From Candidatus Nitrospira neomarina (GTDB lineage Bacteria; Nitrospirota; Nitrospiria; Nitrospirales; UBA8639), in assembly GCF_032051675.1 (NCBI RefSeq), contig NZ_CP116968.1:930001-994000 (forward strand): 64,000 nt of DNA, written 5' to 3'. The translations under genes and the position numbers were made by a program. Below, in pieces: positions 18,985-26,388 of the stretch. Position 1 is the stretch's first letter; each line of letters begins with the position of its first letter. The notes beneath the pieces were generated by a model. The model was not told the DNA's origin and did no database searches. It was given only the letters and a program-made list of their open reading frames with translations.

Positions 18985-20208
18985 TTATTCCAACATTTTT
19001 TTTGCTGACTGGCTTGAGGTATGTGAAGAAGAAGGGTCAAGTGTATGGGGAAGGTAAATCCGGTTGGCTTTTCCCCCGATCCCGCACAACACTTCATAGG
19101 GAATCGTGTTCAACCATCCGGCATGATCTTCAGCTGTTATTTCCCGTGTCCCCTGTTTTCCCAGTAACACGACCTCGTCTCCAATCGTTGGATGGGGAAT
19201 GTCCGTGACATCCACCATCATCATATCCATGCAAATTTTTCCTATGATGGGGGCCTGTTCTCCTTTGATGAGAACATGTCCGACTCCCGTGAGGTGTCTG
19301 GGAAATCCGTGGGTATAACCCACCGGAAGGACGGCGATTTGAGATGGCCTCCGTGTGCGGAATAGGGCGTTATATCCCACAATTTCACCAGGCTGGAGAG
19401 ACCGGAGATGGGCCACGTATGTGGTGGCATGCATCACCGGTTCAAGAGTGAGGGCTTGGGGAGCACTCTCCTGCCGGGGTGCGTATCCATATAACATTAA
19501 TCCAGGTCTGACCATTCCCAAATGGGCAGTTGGATGAAACAAGATTCCTGCACTATTGGCCATATGCAGTATTGGTGGTTGGACTCCCAATTGCTTCGCT
19601 TGGTCGATAAAGGCCAAAAACTTTTGGATTTGAACATTGGTTAAGGTGTGATCCTGATTGTCGGCATCAGCAAAATGGCTTAAGAGGCCCTCTATTTCAA
19701 TGAGAGGGGTCGAGTGCGATAGCCTGCTTAGAAGGGAGAGGGCTTCATCATTCTCGAAGCCGAGTCGGTGTAATCCAGTGTCGACTTTGAGATGAATAGG
19801 AAATGGGGTGGCGCGAGGAAAAAGGAGCTCGATAAGTTGTTGAACGCTTTCTGCACGAGAAATCACCGGAGTAAGCTGATGGCGAATAATTTCGCTTAGA
19901 TGCTGAGGGAGGATGGGCCCCATAACCAGGATGGGGCAGTGAATGTGGTGCTCTCGAAGGGTTATCCCTTCCATGACGGATGCCACACCAAATCCAAAAA
20001 TTCCCAGGTGTTCCAGGGTCTGAGCCACAGGAATCGCCCCATGGCCATATGCATCAGCTTTAACGACGGCCAGAATTTTTGTAGATGGAGCGATCCATTG
20101 CCGGATTTGTTGGAAATTCCTGGCTAGCGCATCAAGACTGATAGAAACGGTAATCGGGGATGAGACGTGTCGGAGGTCGGAAAGTGAAGGTGGCCTGATC
20201 GGTATCAC
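18985..20208 (-). CDS. alr: alanine racemase
   Basis: The product is 407 residues. The PLP-binding Lys is in AVVKADAYGHG. The second catalytic base, a Tyr, is in IVGYNALFRTRRPSQIAVLPVGYTHGFPR, and GKICMDMMMVDVTD and EVLCGIGGKANRIY are conserved C-terminal blocks. It converts L- to D-alanine for peptidoglycan. It is about 20-30 residues longer than typical at each end (a low-complexity Ser/His tail). Last gene of the rpsB-tsf-pyrH-frr-alr series, nine bases after frr, so very likely in the same transcript. Confidence 0.95.
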   Translation of the reverse strand: MIPIRPPSLSDLRHVSSPITVSISLDALARNFQQIRQWIAPSTKILAVVKADAYGHGAIPVAQTLEHLGIFGFGVASVMEGITLREHHIHCPILVMGPILPQHLSEIIRHQLTPVISRAESVQQLIELLFPRATPFPIHLKVDTGLHRLGFENDEALSLLSRLSHSTPLIEIEGLLSHFADADNQDHTLTNVQIQKFLAFIDQAKQLGVQPPILHMANSAGILFHPTAHLGMVRPGLMLYGYAPRQESAPQALTLEPVMHATTYVAHLRSLQPGEIVGYNALFRTRRPSQIAVLPVGYTHGFPRHLTGVGHVLIKGEQAPIIGKICMDMMMVDVTDIPHPTIGDEVVLLGKQGTREITAEDHAGWLNTIPYEVLCGIGGKANRIYLPHTLDPSSSHTSSQSAKKMLE

Positions 20209-20217
20209 AAATATTCC

Positions 20218-20775
20218 TTAAATCGCGAGTATTTCCTCCTCCTTTTTCTTGGTGAGGTCATCGACGATCTGTATAAATTTATCTGTGAGTTTTTGAATTT
20301 CAGCCTCTAACCGGTGCTGGGTATCTTCTGTCAGTGAGCCTTCTTTGTGAAGGTGTTTGAGTTCGTCATTCCCTTCCCGACGAAATCCACGAATCTGTAC
20401 CTTGGTCTCTTCTCCATATTTTTTGCTGAGTTTGACCAAATCTTTTCGTCGTTCTTCACTCAGTGGGGGAATGGGTAGCCGGATGAGTTTGCCATCATTG
20501 GATGGGGTGAGGCCAAGCTCTGAACTAATGATGGCCCGTTCAATTTCTCTGATTTGGGAGGTATCCCAGGGCTGAATGGTAATCAGTCGGCTCTCAGGAA
20601 TCGCGAGGTTGGCGACTTGCTTGAGTGGAGTGGGCGTCCCGTAATAATCAACGGTGATATGGTCAAGTAATCCCAAGGAGGCGCGACCGGTTCGAAGGGA
20701 CATGAATTCTCTCTTGAGGTGCTCAATGGCTCCCTCCATTCGCTGTGTGGTTTTAAGAATGGTTGGATCGTTCAT
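20218..20775 (-). CDS. frr: ribosome recycling factor
   Basis: The product is 185 residues, the normal family length. The conserved opening is LKREFMSLRTGRASLGLLD, followed by DYYGTPTPLKQVANLAIPE, the RLPIPPLSEERRKDLVKL hinge segment and a long C-terminal helix. With EF-G it splits post-termination ribosomes. The ATG at 20775 has GGGGA seven bases upstream; the ATG at 20781 abuts that site and is less likely. It lies 14 bases after pyrH in the same direction. Confidence 0.97.
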   Translation of the reverse strand: MNDPTILKTTQRMEGAIEHLKREFMSLRTGRASLGLLDHITVDYYGTPTPLKQVANLAIPESRLITIQPWDTSQIREIERAIISSELGLTPSNDGKLIRLPIPPLSEERRKDLVKLSKKYGEETKVQIRGFRREGNDELKHLHKEGSLTEDTQHRLEAEIQKLTDKFIQIVDDLTKKKEEEILAI

Positions 20776-20789
20776 GATCATTCCCCACG

Positions 20790-21518
20790 TTAAGTGACAA
20801 GCGCATTTTTGGAAACAATGGTGCCGACCGGTTCCCCTTCAAGGATTTTTCTGATATTTCCTGATGAGGTCAGATCGAACACAATGATAGGCAGATCGTT
20901 ATCCATGCAGAGTGTAATGGCTGTGGCATCCATTACCTTCAAGCTTTTATTGAGCACCGATAAAAATGGTAATTCCGTGAAGCGTTTGGCCGAGGGTGTC
21001 GTCATAGGGTCCGCGTCGTAGATGCCATCAACCTTCGTGCCTTTCATGATAACATCCGCACCAATTTCCATGGCTCGGAGCGCGGCAGCGGTGTCGGTCG
21101 TAAAGTAGGGATTCCCGGTACCGGCGGCAAAAATCACCACGCGTTTTTTTTCCAAATGCCGAATAGCTCGGCGACGAATGTAACTTTCGGCTAACTGCCG
21201 CATTTCTATTGCCGATAAGACGCGTGTGGGGATGTCTTTACTCTCTAAAGCATTTTGTAAAGCCAGAGCATTCAACAAGGTGGCGAGCATGCCCATGTAA
21301 TCGGCCGAAGCTCGTTCCATGCCAGAGGCACTGGCAGCAAGACCTCTGAAAATGTTGCCACCTCCAATCACAATGGCGATTTCGACCTTCAGGGTCAGTA
21401 CGTCGGCAATTTCGGCTGCGAGATTATGTAAAACGGAAGGTTGGATGCCGTAGGTCTGCTCTCCAGCGAGCATTTCTCCACTAATTTTTAAGAGGACCCG
21501 ACGATATTTGAGGGGCAT
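20790..21518 (-). CDS. pyrH: uridylate kinase (UMP kinase)
   Basis: The product is 242 residues of the amino-acid-kinase fold. Motifs are [15 protein letters not shown] at the N-terminus, [10 protein letters not shown], the bacterial UMP-kinase signature [37 protein letters not shown], and [10 protein letters not shown]. It phosphorylates UMP to UDP with ATP. Its ATG shares one base with the tsf stop (TAATG), giving tight coupling. The order tsf-pyrH-frr is widely conserved. Confidence 0.97.
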
Positions 21519-22114
21519 TAGTCCTGGCCGAGTTGGTAACGCGTAAAGCGACTGATCGTGAGGTTTTCTCCTAACTTCGCGATTTTCTGTGAAAGGAGAT
21601 CTTGAATGCTGATGCTGGGATCCTTAATAAAGGCTTGTTCCAAGAGGCACTGCTCTTGATAATATTTTTCGAGCTTTCCCTTAATGATTTTCTCCCAGGT
21701 CCCTTCGGGTTTTCCGGACTCTTTCATCTGTGCGAGGTAAATATTCTTTTCCCGTTCGATCAAGTCCTCCGGAATGTCTTCCCGTTTAATGTACATAGGA
21801 TGAGAGGCAGCGATTTGTAAAGCCACTTCCTTAACAAAAGCTTGAAATTCTTCATTGCGTGCCACAAAGTCTGTTTCACAATTGACTTCAATCAGGACTC
21901 CAATTTTTGATCCTGAATGAATATACGAGGAAATAATACCCTCTTTGGTTTCTCGGCCTGCTTTCTTTTGTGCAGCGGCCAACCCTTTTTGACGCAACAG
22001 ATCGATGGCTTTTTCGACATCATTCCCTGTGTCTTGTAGGGCTTTTTGGCAATCAAGGATTCCTGCCCCTGTTTTGCCTCGCAACTCCTTCACCAAGGCA
22101 CTCAAACTAGACAT
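21518..22114 (-). CDS. tsf: translation elongation factor Ts
   Basis: The product is 198 residues, the short bacterial form. It has the N-terminal UBA-like domain ([20 protein letters not shown]) with the conserved T-G-A-G segment, then the core domain with [14 protein letters not shown]. It recycles EF-Tu by exchanging GDP. The ATG at 22114 lies about nine bases after AGGAG; the ATG at 22120 is closer (three bases) and would add Met-His. It lies 61 bases after rpsB. Confidence 0.97.
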
Positions 22115-22175
22115 GTGCATGCTCTCCTACTGACAGTAATATAAATTTCAGTTTAATTAGATGAACCCAGGATCC

Positions 22176-22958
22176 TTAGACAGGTTGGGTATTCTTGTTT
22201 GGCGCACCCGATGGATGACCTTGCTCGGTGTTGTCGGGAAGAAACCCTTCGCCATTCGCCACTGACTCCTGGCGCTTCCGGCGAAGTTCCGTACCTTCGA
22301 TGCAGGCGTCGGCAATCTGTCCCGTAAATAATTTGAGGGATCGAATGGCATCGTCATTACCGGGTATAGGAAAGTCCACCCCTTCAGGGTCACAGTTGGT
22401 GTCTACTAAAGCAATAACCGGAATGCCAAGGCGATTAGCTTCCTTAACCGTAATGTGCTGGATCCTGGTGTCTAATATGTAAATGCACCCAGGAATATCA
22501 TTCATGCCTTTGATACCGCTCAAATATTTTTCCAGTTTGGCTTGCTCTTTTTTCATGCGAACGATTTCTTTCTTTTTGAGTCGTTCGTATGTGCCATCGG
22601 TTTCCGCAGCTTCAAGTTTTTTTAGTTGGTTGATGCTGCGACGGAGTGTCTGGAAATTCGTTAACATTCCACCCAACCATCGCTGGTTAACAAAAAACAT
22701 TCCACAACGATTGGCTTCTTCTTCCACAATTCCCATGGCTTGCCGCTTAGTCCCCACGAATAAGACGGATTCCCCGGCAGCCACTGTATCACGGGTAAAT
22801 TCGTAGGCTTTTTGAAAGCATTGGAGAGAAATTTGAAGATCAATAATATAAATACCGTTTTTTTCTCCGAAGATATAGCGTTTCATCTTCGGGTTCCAGC
22901 GATTGGTTTGATGCCCGAAGTGAACTCCAGCTTCTAATAACGATTTAATCGTGACCAT
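22176..22958 (-). CDS. rpsB: 30S ribosomal protein S2
   Basis: The product is 260 residues. It begins [25 protein letters not shown], the canonical S2 N-terminus, and contains [21 protein letters not shown] and [29 protein letters not shown]. The ATG at 22958 is selected over 22973 because it matches the family start and GGGAAGG lies upstream. The C-terminal 25 residues are a low-complexity extension ([13 protein letters not shown]). First gene of a likely five-gene operon. Confidence 0.97.
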
Positions 22959-23370
22959 AACGGACCTTCCCACCCCCTTTCAGAGATATATTGATTAACA
23001 CAAAACCGTGGATTTTTTAAAGAAACACAAAACAGTAATTTGGCTCAAATGGGACCGGCAGGAGACAATAGATGTGGATTGTCTTATCAGGCAGGCTGTT
23101 CCAAGTGAAGAGACATTCATGCAATTTAGTGATGTTCAATATTTTTCCATTAAACCAATGGAGATTAGCATAGGTGAAAATTATAATTCAACCCTGACTA
23201 TCTTTTATGGGTATGCGACGCGCTGTTAGCTTCGGAGAGGGATCGTGGAATAACCAGAAAGTGTTCCGAGGAAAATCTTTTTTGAATCAATGCCATTTTT
23301 GACTCTGTGAGCCTTCATGGCTATAGTCAGTGCCGCATTCAGAAATTTTTATGATGAAGGAGTGCGAAGG
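22959..23370. other. 412-base divergent gap, promoter region of rpsB and the ProA-like gene
   Basis: It separates the minus-strand rpsB operon from the plus-strand ProA-like gene and should hold both promoters. An AT-rich stretch lies at 22986-23030, but no promoter hexamers stand out. A 73-codon open frame at 23008-23229 has a GTG start in a T-run and no ribosome binding site; I do not call it. Confidence 0.5.
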
Positions 23371-24726
23371 ATGGTTGAAGTACCTCTAAAATTATACGTG
23401 CAAGCGCTTTTGAAAGAAGCGAAGGAGGCTGCTCGCCCCATGGCGTGCCTGTCTTCCAGTGTGAAAAATCAGGCCTTAAAGGCGATGGCCGAGAGTCTAG
23501 TCAATCATACTCAGGAAATTTTGGAGGCCAATGCAAAAGATTTGGCTGGCATTTCCAAGGAAACCGATCAACAAGTCCATCGTGAGGCGTCAGAACGCAT
23601 TCGAATTTCCGAAGACACGATTCGCCTCATGCACCAAGGGTTGTTAGATTTAGAAGCTCTTCCTGATCCAATCGGCGAGGCGAGTCACGCCTGGCTCACT
23701 CCAGATGGAATGCAGGTTCATACTGTCCGTTCTCCACTGGGTATTGTCGCGGTGGTGTCGGATATGGGGCCATTGATGACCGCTGAATCGTTTGGGATGT
23801 GCATGAAGACCAACAATGTCTGTGTCTTTCGTGGGGGAACCGAGTGGTTTCATACTAATAGTGCGATTGTTCACTATCTCCAAGAGGCGGCGGTGTTCCA
23901 TGGTGTTCCTAATGGGGGGCTGACATTTCTCGACCGGAGTTCTCCGGAGGCGGCCCTGGAAATGGTGCGATATCCTCAGTATGTCCAAGCCGTCATTACA
24001 CGAGGGAGTGCTGGTTTGCGAAATGGGATCTTAGAGCATTCGAGAGTTCCTGTCATTGGATTTGAGGGAGGCCTGTGTCATGTGTATGTCGATCAGGATG
24101 TCGATATCCCATTGGCTCAAACCATCGCGGTGAATGCTAAACTTCAATCGCCATCTGCAGCGAATGCCATGGACACGCTCTTGGTTCATCAGGGCGTTTG
24201 TCGGCATTTATTGCCAGGGTTAACACGAAGATTTCTTCAGGAGTATCGTGTGACTTTGCGTGGCTGTCCTAAAACGGTTTCCATGATGGGTATTTTGGAA
24301 ATGACCGGGCATTTAGGGATTAAAGCGGCGGAAGAACCGGATTGGGGGAGAAAATATCAATCCTTAACTCTGAATATTAAAGTGGTAAAAGATAGTCAAG
24401 AAGCTATCGATCATATTGGGACCTATGCCCCAGGGCATACCGATACTATTGTAACTCGAGACTATCAGTTAGCCATGCGCTTTGTTCGAGAGGTCGATTC
24501 GAGCGCGGTTATGGTGAATGCTTCGACCCGTCTTCATGGCGGACCACAATTTGGTCTTGGTCCAGATATCGGGAGTAATAGCACGCGGATGCATGGGCGA
24601 GGTCCTCTTATTCTCTCGAAGCTCACGATTGAAAAATATATGGTATTGGGATCTGGACAACTTCAACAGCCACATCCAGTTCCTCAGATCTACCAGGATG
24701 CGATGATGTTATCTGCCAAGTTCTAG
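23371..24726 (+). CDS. ProA (glutamate-5-semialdehyde dehydrogenase) homologue lacking the catalytic Cys
   Basis: The product is 451 residues, end-to-end like gamma-glutamyl phosphate reductase: SPLGIVAVVSDMGPLMTAES, PVIGFEGGLCHVYVD, GHTDTIVTRDY and REVDSSAVMVNASTR are all in order. At the active site, family members read R-P-G-V-C-N-A-M-E; this protein reads S-P-S-A-A-N-A-M-D, so the nucleophile is Ala264 (GCG at 24160). The R-G-G-K-G loop is RGSAG, and I-S-T-D-K-L-H-A-R-G-P is NSTRMHGRGP. AAGGAG eight bases before the ATG at 23371 fixes the start. It probably cannot form the thioester intermediate, so it is unlikely to be the proline-pathway enzyme. A moonlighting or regulatory role is inferred only from these losses. 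No proB is nearby. Confidence 0.85.
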   Translation: MVEVPLKLYVQALLKEAKEAARPMACLSSSVKNQALKAMAESLVNHTQEILEANAKDLAGISKETDQQVHREASERIRISEDTIRLMHQGLLDLEALPDPIGEASHAWLTPDGMQVHTVRSPLGIVAVVSDMGPLMTAESFGMCMKTNNVCVFRGGTEWFHTNSAIVHYLQEAAVFHGVPNGGLTFLDRSSPEAALEMVRYPQYVQAVITRGSAGLRNGILEHSRVPVIGFEGGLCHVYVDQDVDIPLAQTIAVNAKLQSPSAANAMDTLLVHQGVCRHLLPGLTRRFLQEYRVTLRGCPKTVSMMGILEMTGHLGIKAAEEPDWGRKYQSLTLNIKVVKDSQEAIDHIGTYAPGHTDTIVTRDYQLAMRFVREVDSSAVMVNASTRLHGGPQFGLGPDIGSNSTRMHGRGPLILSKLTIEKYMVLGSGQLQQPHPVPQIYQDAMMLSAKF

Positions 24727-24894: not shown

Positions 24895-26388
24895 ATGGGA
24901 TATAAAAGTGAAGAAATTTCTGATTACCATGCGGAGCTTTTCCCGTATTTGCTGTCATGGGGATTGCGAGAGTTTCATGATGAGGCCTCATATTATGACT
25001 GGCAACGAGAGACTCTTTCCAAAGAGGAATTGTGCGACTTTCAACGATTAATCGAGCATCGATACGGTGGTGAAGACGTAAAAAGCGACATTGATTTTTA
25101 TGATGAATTGGCGCGTCGGGATTTTATCCCTGTTCTGTATTCCCAACGGTTGCATTATTTTTTGACGGTTGGAACCTCTGTGTGTGGCAGGATTGCTCCA
25201 GCAAACCAGGTATTGGACTTTGGTTGTGGGGTTGGCATTCTAACCATTTTTTTTGCCCAACAGCATCCTGACATTGAATTTGTAGGAATCGATCGGTCCT
25301 CTCGATCGATTGAAGTAGCTTGTTTCGAGGCAGAAAAACGACGAATCAGGAATGTTCGCTTCGAGGTCTCTCAGGTGCCACAACAGCAGATCTCGGGAAC
25401 CTACGATCTTATTCTTTCGACTCATGCGTTGTTTCAAGCGGAACGGGAGCCAGGGCTTCCAAGCCAAACCTGGAAAACGTTTCAACGTGCCTGTGACAAT
25501 CAACGACAGGAGCAACTGGAAGGTCTGACGGGGATACAGGGACGATTAGATGTCTTGTTGCGGATTTTAGGGCCAATGGGACGTATGATCCTTTTCGAGA
25601 AAACTTGGAATCTTGGTCGACGAATTTTGTTTCAACGAGCATTAGATGCCAGAGGGGTGTTTCCCATATCTTCTCCGGTTTTCTGCCGATATCGGTCAGT
25701 TGATGAAGAAGTGATCGATGGACCTCTGTATGAGGTTGCCCGACTCTCACATGGCGTGAATCCTTTTGAGTGGAATGAGGAACCGTATCGGGAACCAGGC
25801 GAAACGCTTTATCGTTGTATCGGAATTGCCGCCGAGCGAATGGGTCAGGTGCTGGTTAAGGGGAACGTGAATGCCACCATTACAGGTGTTCATTCTAATT
25901 TGGGCTCCTGGATGTTTCGTTTCGGACGATGGAAGGAGATCTTAACTTGGGGTTTGTGCGAGCATTCTTCTGGTCTGACAGGGTTGGTTATTGGGGGTGA
26001 GGCCGATCGGGATTTATTGTATCAATTAGTTGAAACTGTGACGCACATAACCGAATCTGATTTTCAACAATTGGTTCATGACTTTTGGGGAAACATGATT
26101 CGCGCTCCTGAGGATCCATCCTTGCCTTGTTATGAAAATCACCATTCCTCTGCTCAAATCATTTACGAGGATCTTCCCTCCAAATGCATTCAACAAGAGA
26201 CGACTTGCCAGGATGGTGGGGGAAGAGAAATGCATATCGAGTTAGGGACCACAACCCATTTAACATATCTGTATTGCGCCAATACTTTCGATCAACGCCA
26301 GCTCGTTCTTATTGATGAAGGACGGGCTCAAGTTCTATATGAATATTATCGAGAAAATCTCCAGCCCCCACGCGGTCTACCTGCCTGA
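24895..26388 (+). CDS. class I SAM-dependent methyltransferase with a large C-terminal extension
   Basis: The product is 497 residues. Residues about 100-190 form a Rossmann methyltransferase with motif I VLDFGCGVGILTIFFAQ and motif II VGIDRSSRSIEVA; a T-Y-D-L-I-L-S segment marks motif IV. A further 300 residues hold no recognised fold, though repeated acidic-aromatic segments suggest a second domain. The ATG at 24895 is chosen for its hydrophilic start; the open frame continues to 24742 with a hydrophobic, Cys-rich piece that looks non-coding. The ribosome binding site is weak. It lies 168 bases after the ProA-like gene. The substrate is unknown. Confidence 0.7.
   Translation: MGYKSEEISDYHAELFPYLLSWGLREFHDEASYYDWQRETLSKEELCDFQRLIEHRYGGEDVKSDIDFYDELARRDFIPVLYSQRLHYFLTVGTSVCGRIAPANQVLDFGCGVGILTIFFAQQHPDIEFVGIDRSSRSIEVACFEAEKRRIRNVRFEVSQVPQQQISGTYDLILSTHALFQAEREPGLPSQTWKTFQRACDNQRQEQLEGLTGIQGRLDVLLRILGPMGRMILFEKTWNLGRRILFQRALDARGVFPISSPVFCRYRSVDEEVIDGPLYEVARLSHGVNPFEWNEEPYREPGETLYRCIGIAAERMGQVLVKGNVNATITGVHSNLGSWMFRFGRWKEILTWGLCEHSSGLTGLVIGGEADRDLLYQLVETVTHITESDFQQLVHDFWGNMIRAPEDPSLPCYENHHSSAQIIYEDLPSKCIQQETTCQDGGGREMHIELGTTTHLTYLYCANTFDQRQLVLIDEGRAQVLYEYYRENLQPPRGLPA

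Follow-up and report, generated by a model that had tools for sequence, protein, structure and literature searches.

A cysteine-less ProA paralogue encoded beside a SAM-dependent methyltransferase in Nitrospirales

Introduction

Among proteins of the ALDH fold, ALDH16A1 has been described as a pseudoenzyme; it belongs to another ALDH family, and has another domain architecture, than the ProA paralogue considered here. In ALDHs, the glutamate of the E-x-F motif contacts the nicotinamide ribose, and most of the dead ALDH-fold paralogues known so far come from eukaryotes. Specifically for ProA, literature searches of openly accessible papers found no report of the cysteine-less paralogue described here. 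For the E. coli enzyme, mutation of Glu383 brings a 190- to 2,100-fold activity loss for ProAs (PMC4271523). Outside this fold, dead paralogues that activate live copies are described for AdoMetDC and deoxyhypusine synthase of trypanosomes (PMC5201418, PMC3663545).

The new analysis concerns a window of 64,000 nucleotides from Candidatus Nitrospira neomarina, which encodes a cysteine-less ProA paralogue ("pseudo-ProA") followed by a methyltransferase gene. The data are best explained by an ancient ProA duplicate that has lost the residues needed for the reduction of gamma-glutamyl phosphate and probably became a non-catalytic partner or regulator.

Results

The gene for the paralogue (23371..24726, plus strand) is intact and full-length, with 451 codons plus stop. 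Its frame is mechanically open from 23317, and the start is placed at the methionine at 23371 because the orthologues share a conserved "MVE(V/I)P.K" N-terminus. The protein scores 401 bits against NCBIfam PRK00197 (NF001221), above the cut-off of 289, and 309 bits against TIGR00407, below the cut-off of 317. Solved ProA chains align across nearly its whole length, the best of them sharing 33-34% identity with it, and in this alignment Ala264 stands where these structures have the catalytic Cys. The AlphaFold model (pLDDT 80, with low confidence at loop 392-410 and in the C-terminal tail) has the ProA fold, with a TM of about 0.76 against solved ProA and with 1o20, 4ghk, 8zoo and 8zok as best PDB matches. 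The preliminary description had identified a ProA homologue with an intact frame, an alanine at the catalytic cysteine and altered loops. The first of these points is borne out by the PRK00197 score and the nearly full-length alignment of solved chains, and the second by the same structures; the altered loops are likewise seen, with "RGSAG" against canonical PRGG and "NSTRMHGRGP" against canonical STTRIHARGP. As the NF001221 score exceeds the cut-off, annotation by this profile would label the paralogue another proA (glutamate-5-semialdehyde dehydrogenase) and would mislead metabolic models of Nitrospira.

The same 4.8-Mb genome encodes a canonical proA with the Cys present (STCNSMET), about 4 kb from proC, as well as one clear proB. 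The second, canonical proA that the preliminary description had proposed looking for is thereby found, and the possibility that the genome has no canonical copy is rejected.

Around the active site of the paralogue, several invariants of canonical ProA are lost together in its clade, namely Cys, Arg133 and Asn135 of the ESRPN motif, Glu328, Asp390 and Glu399. Ala264 (codon GCG, 24160..24162, plus strand) occupies the position of Cys255 in T. maritima ProA, where 45 of 45 canonical sequences carry C; across 79 distinct orthologues, the column reads A in 31, S in 25, T in 14, P in 7, G in 2 and C in none. Because it varies in this way and is never C, the loss of the nucleophile is fixed and the replacement residue is not. 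This also rejects a conserved replacement nucleophile and answers the earlier question of whether Ala264 is conserved: the absence of Cys is, the alanine is not. Further replacements on the plus strand are Gly133 (23767..23769) for the ESRPN-motif Arg, invariant in canonical ProA (45/45), and Lys328 (24352..24354) for a canonical-invariant Glu, which falls on the E-x-F glutamate when profiles are aligned with aldehyde dehydrogenases of the same genome. Asp399 (24565..24567, plus strand) is the equivalent of E. coli Glu383, in a column that varies among the paralogues (E 15, D 13, Q 5, G 1; n=34), and Leu330 is likewise not conserved. From these lost residues, the paralogue would be predicted to lack reductase activity.

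Of the 97 near-invariant columns of 45 canonical ProAs, 80 are retained, and most members of the inactive clade have lost the other 17. The NASTR and PRG motifs persist, and at the old cofactor site the PRG loop is kept together with Arg154, whose counterpart in the alignment is the adenosine-side lysine of ALDHs, while the nicotinamide-side Glu328 is changed to Q/K. In turn, the paralogue clade has gained 19 invariant positions, including Ser130, which stands where canonical ProA has Tyr/Phe, Arg217, which adjoins the PRGG loop, Gln250 and Asp268. A C-terminal tail with the pattern PHPVPxxYxDAxM (24670..24723, plus strand) occurs only in the cysteine-less clade and is absent from canonical ProA; it contains eight residues invariant in that clade (P434, H435, P436, P438, Y441, D443, A444 and M446) and is a candidate partner-docking segment.

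A full-length cysteine-less orthologue is present in 47 of the 49 genomes of the window's family, nearly all of which also have a canonical copy, and about 151 of 175 genomes of the second large Nitrospirales family have full-length matches as strong as those of the inactive clade. In the order's two other families, none of 12 genomes has a cysteine-less copy, and the sampled members have only canonical ProA (order-wide family counts were made at E < 1e-150). Genomes of the carrier families in which the paralogue is missing are mostly incomplete assemblies, and the named relatives are Nitrospira/Nitrospirales MAGs. The families that oxidise nitrite are Nitrospiraceae, UBA8639 and NS-4 (PMC12342949); by way of the same source, the carrier families are very probably UBA8639 and Nitrospiraceae, and we infer that the non-carrier families (f2 and f4) are NS-4 and UBA2166. 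Because the latter assignment is indirect, no link between the paralogue and nitrite oxidation is claimed. The preliminary description had allowed that the Ala264 allele might be unique to this assembly; the Cys is instead absent across two families, and an assembly error or unique allele is rejected by full-length orthologues in about 200 genomes.

A maximum-likelihood tree of 79 proteins (a quick search with SH-aLRT support and no bootstrap) recovers the inactive clade as monophyletic (SH-aLRT 100, stem 0.6). Its sister is formed by the canonical copies that the same two families carry, whose stem branch is 0.09, and canonical sequences from the other two families fall outside (99). A single duplication that preceded the split of the two carrier families explains this topology, which supports the reading of the paralogue as one orthologous clade of ancient origin; with canonical copies of the same families as sister, horizontal acquisition from outside is not supported. 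The 16 orthologues of the window's family align without gaps over all 451 columns. Pairwise dN/dS is 0.08-0.11 for the paralogue; the canonical copy gives 0.05-0.08 and the methyltransferase 0.24-0.27. Of the earlier proposal that a new or regulatory function is under selection, the selection is thus corroborated by the dN/dS values and the gap-free alignment, and the function is plausible; that proposal had passed over the strongest clue to function, the constantly adjacent methyltransferase gene.

This constant downstream neighbour encodes a class I SAM-dependent methyltransferase (24895..26388, plus strand; 497 aa from a conserved start in an ORF open from 24742). The protein matches Pfam Methyltransf_31 (E 1.7e-14) and has an intact SAM motif (DFGCGVG...GIDRS), in which D108, C111, G112 and G114 of motif I and D133 and R134 at the acidic beta2 end are invariant among 38 sequences. 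Its model (pLDDT 90) combines a Rossmann core with a duplicated C-terminal domain. The first copy of this unnamed alpha-beta domain (25807..26043, plus strand, residues about 305-383) is absent in many Nitrospiraceae homologues, and the second, conserved copy (26128..26364, plus strand, residues about 412-490) carries YENHxPSAQ...YLYxANTFDQRQLV. The two copies match each other in hhalign (96.9%, E 1.3e-10), and neither Pfam nor NCBIfam has a match for the duplicated domain. Among solved folds, those nearest to the protein belong mostly to methyltransferases of small molecules, such as DtpM, DnrK and TehB; by sequence it also weakly matches a protein lysine methyltransferase (E 4e-5).

Across the phylum, the methyltransferase gene is found in 136 of 396 genomes and 24 of 169 genera, and matches to the profile of the paralogue at the cut-off occur in 137 genomes and 24 genera, an approximate count, as the E-value cut-off also catches a few canonical copies. 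Wherever both genes could be placed by the listed match coordinates, they lie side by side, and in the loci measured the methyltransferase gene is 3' of the paralogue on the same strand with a gap of 3-286 bp. In three apparent singletons (G057, G061 and G108), the remaining gene lies at a contig edge or is a partial match; in G136 and G185, neither gene was found. At three loci (L087, L150 and L154), the simple ORF caller chose an antisense frame, and tblastn recovers the methyltransferase there. The pair is divergent from rpsB-tsf-pyrH-frr-alr in one family and has other flanking genes in the second; since the flanks differ, the adjacency is not simple frozen synteny and has survived relocation. 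In a mirror-tree comparison of paralogue and methyltransferase with canonical ProA controlled, the partial correlation is 0.69 in one family and -0.16 across both; differences in methyltransferase length and saturation probably blur the comparison, which does not discriminate between the two partners.

The surroundings of the pair yielded further observations. The alr-frr-pyrH-tsf-rpsB block (18985-22973, minus strand) lies divergently upstream in nearly all examined genomes of the window's family. Strong conservation in most of the Nitrospirales tested is also seen for a B12-binding radical SAM protein pair with distant similarity to PhpK/RiPP methyltransferases (for example L196, at G000:C1:1002542-1006283; L137:555-4450; L138:9137-12977). 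The genes of this pair lie directly 3' of the two-gene module in several Nitrospiraceae genera and ~48 kb downstream in the window's genome, and at L200, from a family that lacks the module, they stand beside a gene that flanks the module elsewhere. As the radical SAM pair also occurs where the module does not, it is rejected as a core part. Unusually long open frames in a radical SAM copy (L145:10628-12841, oriented with the module) and in a methyltransferase homologue (L043:7512-9560) are probably start-site or assembly effects.

Discussion

The genomic evidence gives about an even chance that the paralogue is a pseudoenzyme that forms a two-protein module with the downstream methyltransferase, in which it would be the subunit without catalysis. 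Constant adjacency and a shared distribution make the methyltransferase the candidate partner, although gaps of up to 286 bp leave co-transcription an assumption. Under such an arrangement, the ALDH-fold scaffold would hold or regulate the methyltransferase, the conserved C-terminal tail could be the docking segment, and two motifs suggest that the Arg154/PRG end, which is retained, might still let the paralogue bind an adenine nucleotide. In a more specific and doubtful form of the idea, the paralogue would sense nucleotides as an allosteric subunit of a SAM methyltransferase dedicated to this module, which would be conserved through the Nitrospira nitrifiers; its ligand would perhaps be an adenosine compound such as SAM, SAH or NADP(H), bound through the retained adenosine end of the old cofactor site.

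Other partners and other roles have to be weighed against this model. The paralogue might hetero-oligomerise with canonical ProA, or with ProB, and so regulate proline synthesis in the manner of a prozyme. Canonical ProA, ProB and ProC are all encoded in the same genome, and the 80 of 97 canonical near-invariant columns that are retained indicate that the fold, and perhaps an interface, has been kept. However, paralogue and canonical proA are far apart in the window's genome (G000; 953 kb vs 1276 kb), whereas the methyltransferase gene is constantly adjacent, and the canonical copies keep all catalytic residues on a short stem (0.09 vs 0.6) and therefore give no sign of dependence on the paralogue. 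This makes a prozyme-like subunit fairly unlikely, yet canonical ProA stays a serious alternative partner because of the dead-paralogue precedents (PMC5201418, PMC3663545). Cys-independent catalysis, either kept or gained in a pocket remodelled around the new invariants Arg217, Ser130 and Asp268, would fit the 19 newly invariant positions, among them Arg217 by the PRGG loop and Ser130, where Tyr/Phe is canonical; it is unlikely in view of an old catalytic column in which A, S, T, P or G may stand and of the loss of conservation at Glu328, Leu330, Asn135 and Arg133 in the cofactor- and substrate-side motifs.

The constant adjacency, the intact SAM motif and the clade-unique conserved tail would also suit a paralogue that is the substrate of the methyltransferase, with methylation of the tail or of a surface residue switching the scaffold. 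The closest solved folds, being mostly those of small-molecule methyltransferases, make this quite improbable, and the protein lysine methyltransferase that is weakly matched by sequence (E 4e-5) does not settle the matter. Finally, missing key catalytic residues are also what a decaying duplicate or an assembly artefact would display, but full length in about 200 genomes, a dN/dS of about 0.1 and the gap-free family alignment refute this explanation, which retains practically no probability. The proposed pseudoenzyme-methyltransferase module concerns a paralogue that is old, nearly universal in two nitrifier families and provided with a clear candidate partner, so that its role is directly testable.

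Compared with known systems, the methyltransferase shares the SAM-binding motif and Rossmann core of class I SAM methyltransferases (Methyltransf_31) but adds family-specific N-terminal helices and the duplicated C-terminal domain. The paralogue shares full-length homology, predicted fold and the NASTR and PRG motifs with ProA (NF001221/TIGR00407; PDB 1o20, 4ghk, 8zok); unlike ProA, it lacks the catalytic Cys, does not conserve the ESRPN Arg, the Glu383 equivalent or the nicotinamide-side Glu, has an extra conserved C-terminal tail and adjoins a methyltransferase gene. As an ancient, apparently inactive paralogue maintained by selection beside an active copy, it resembles the trypanosome AdoMetDC prozyme and the regulatory subunit of deoxyhypusine synthase (PMC5201418, PMC3663545). 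Those proteins bind their active paralogue, whereas here the gene order suggests an unrelated enzyme, the methyltransferase, as the candidate partner.
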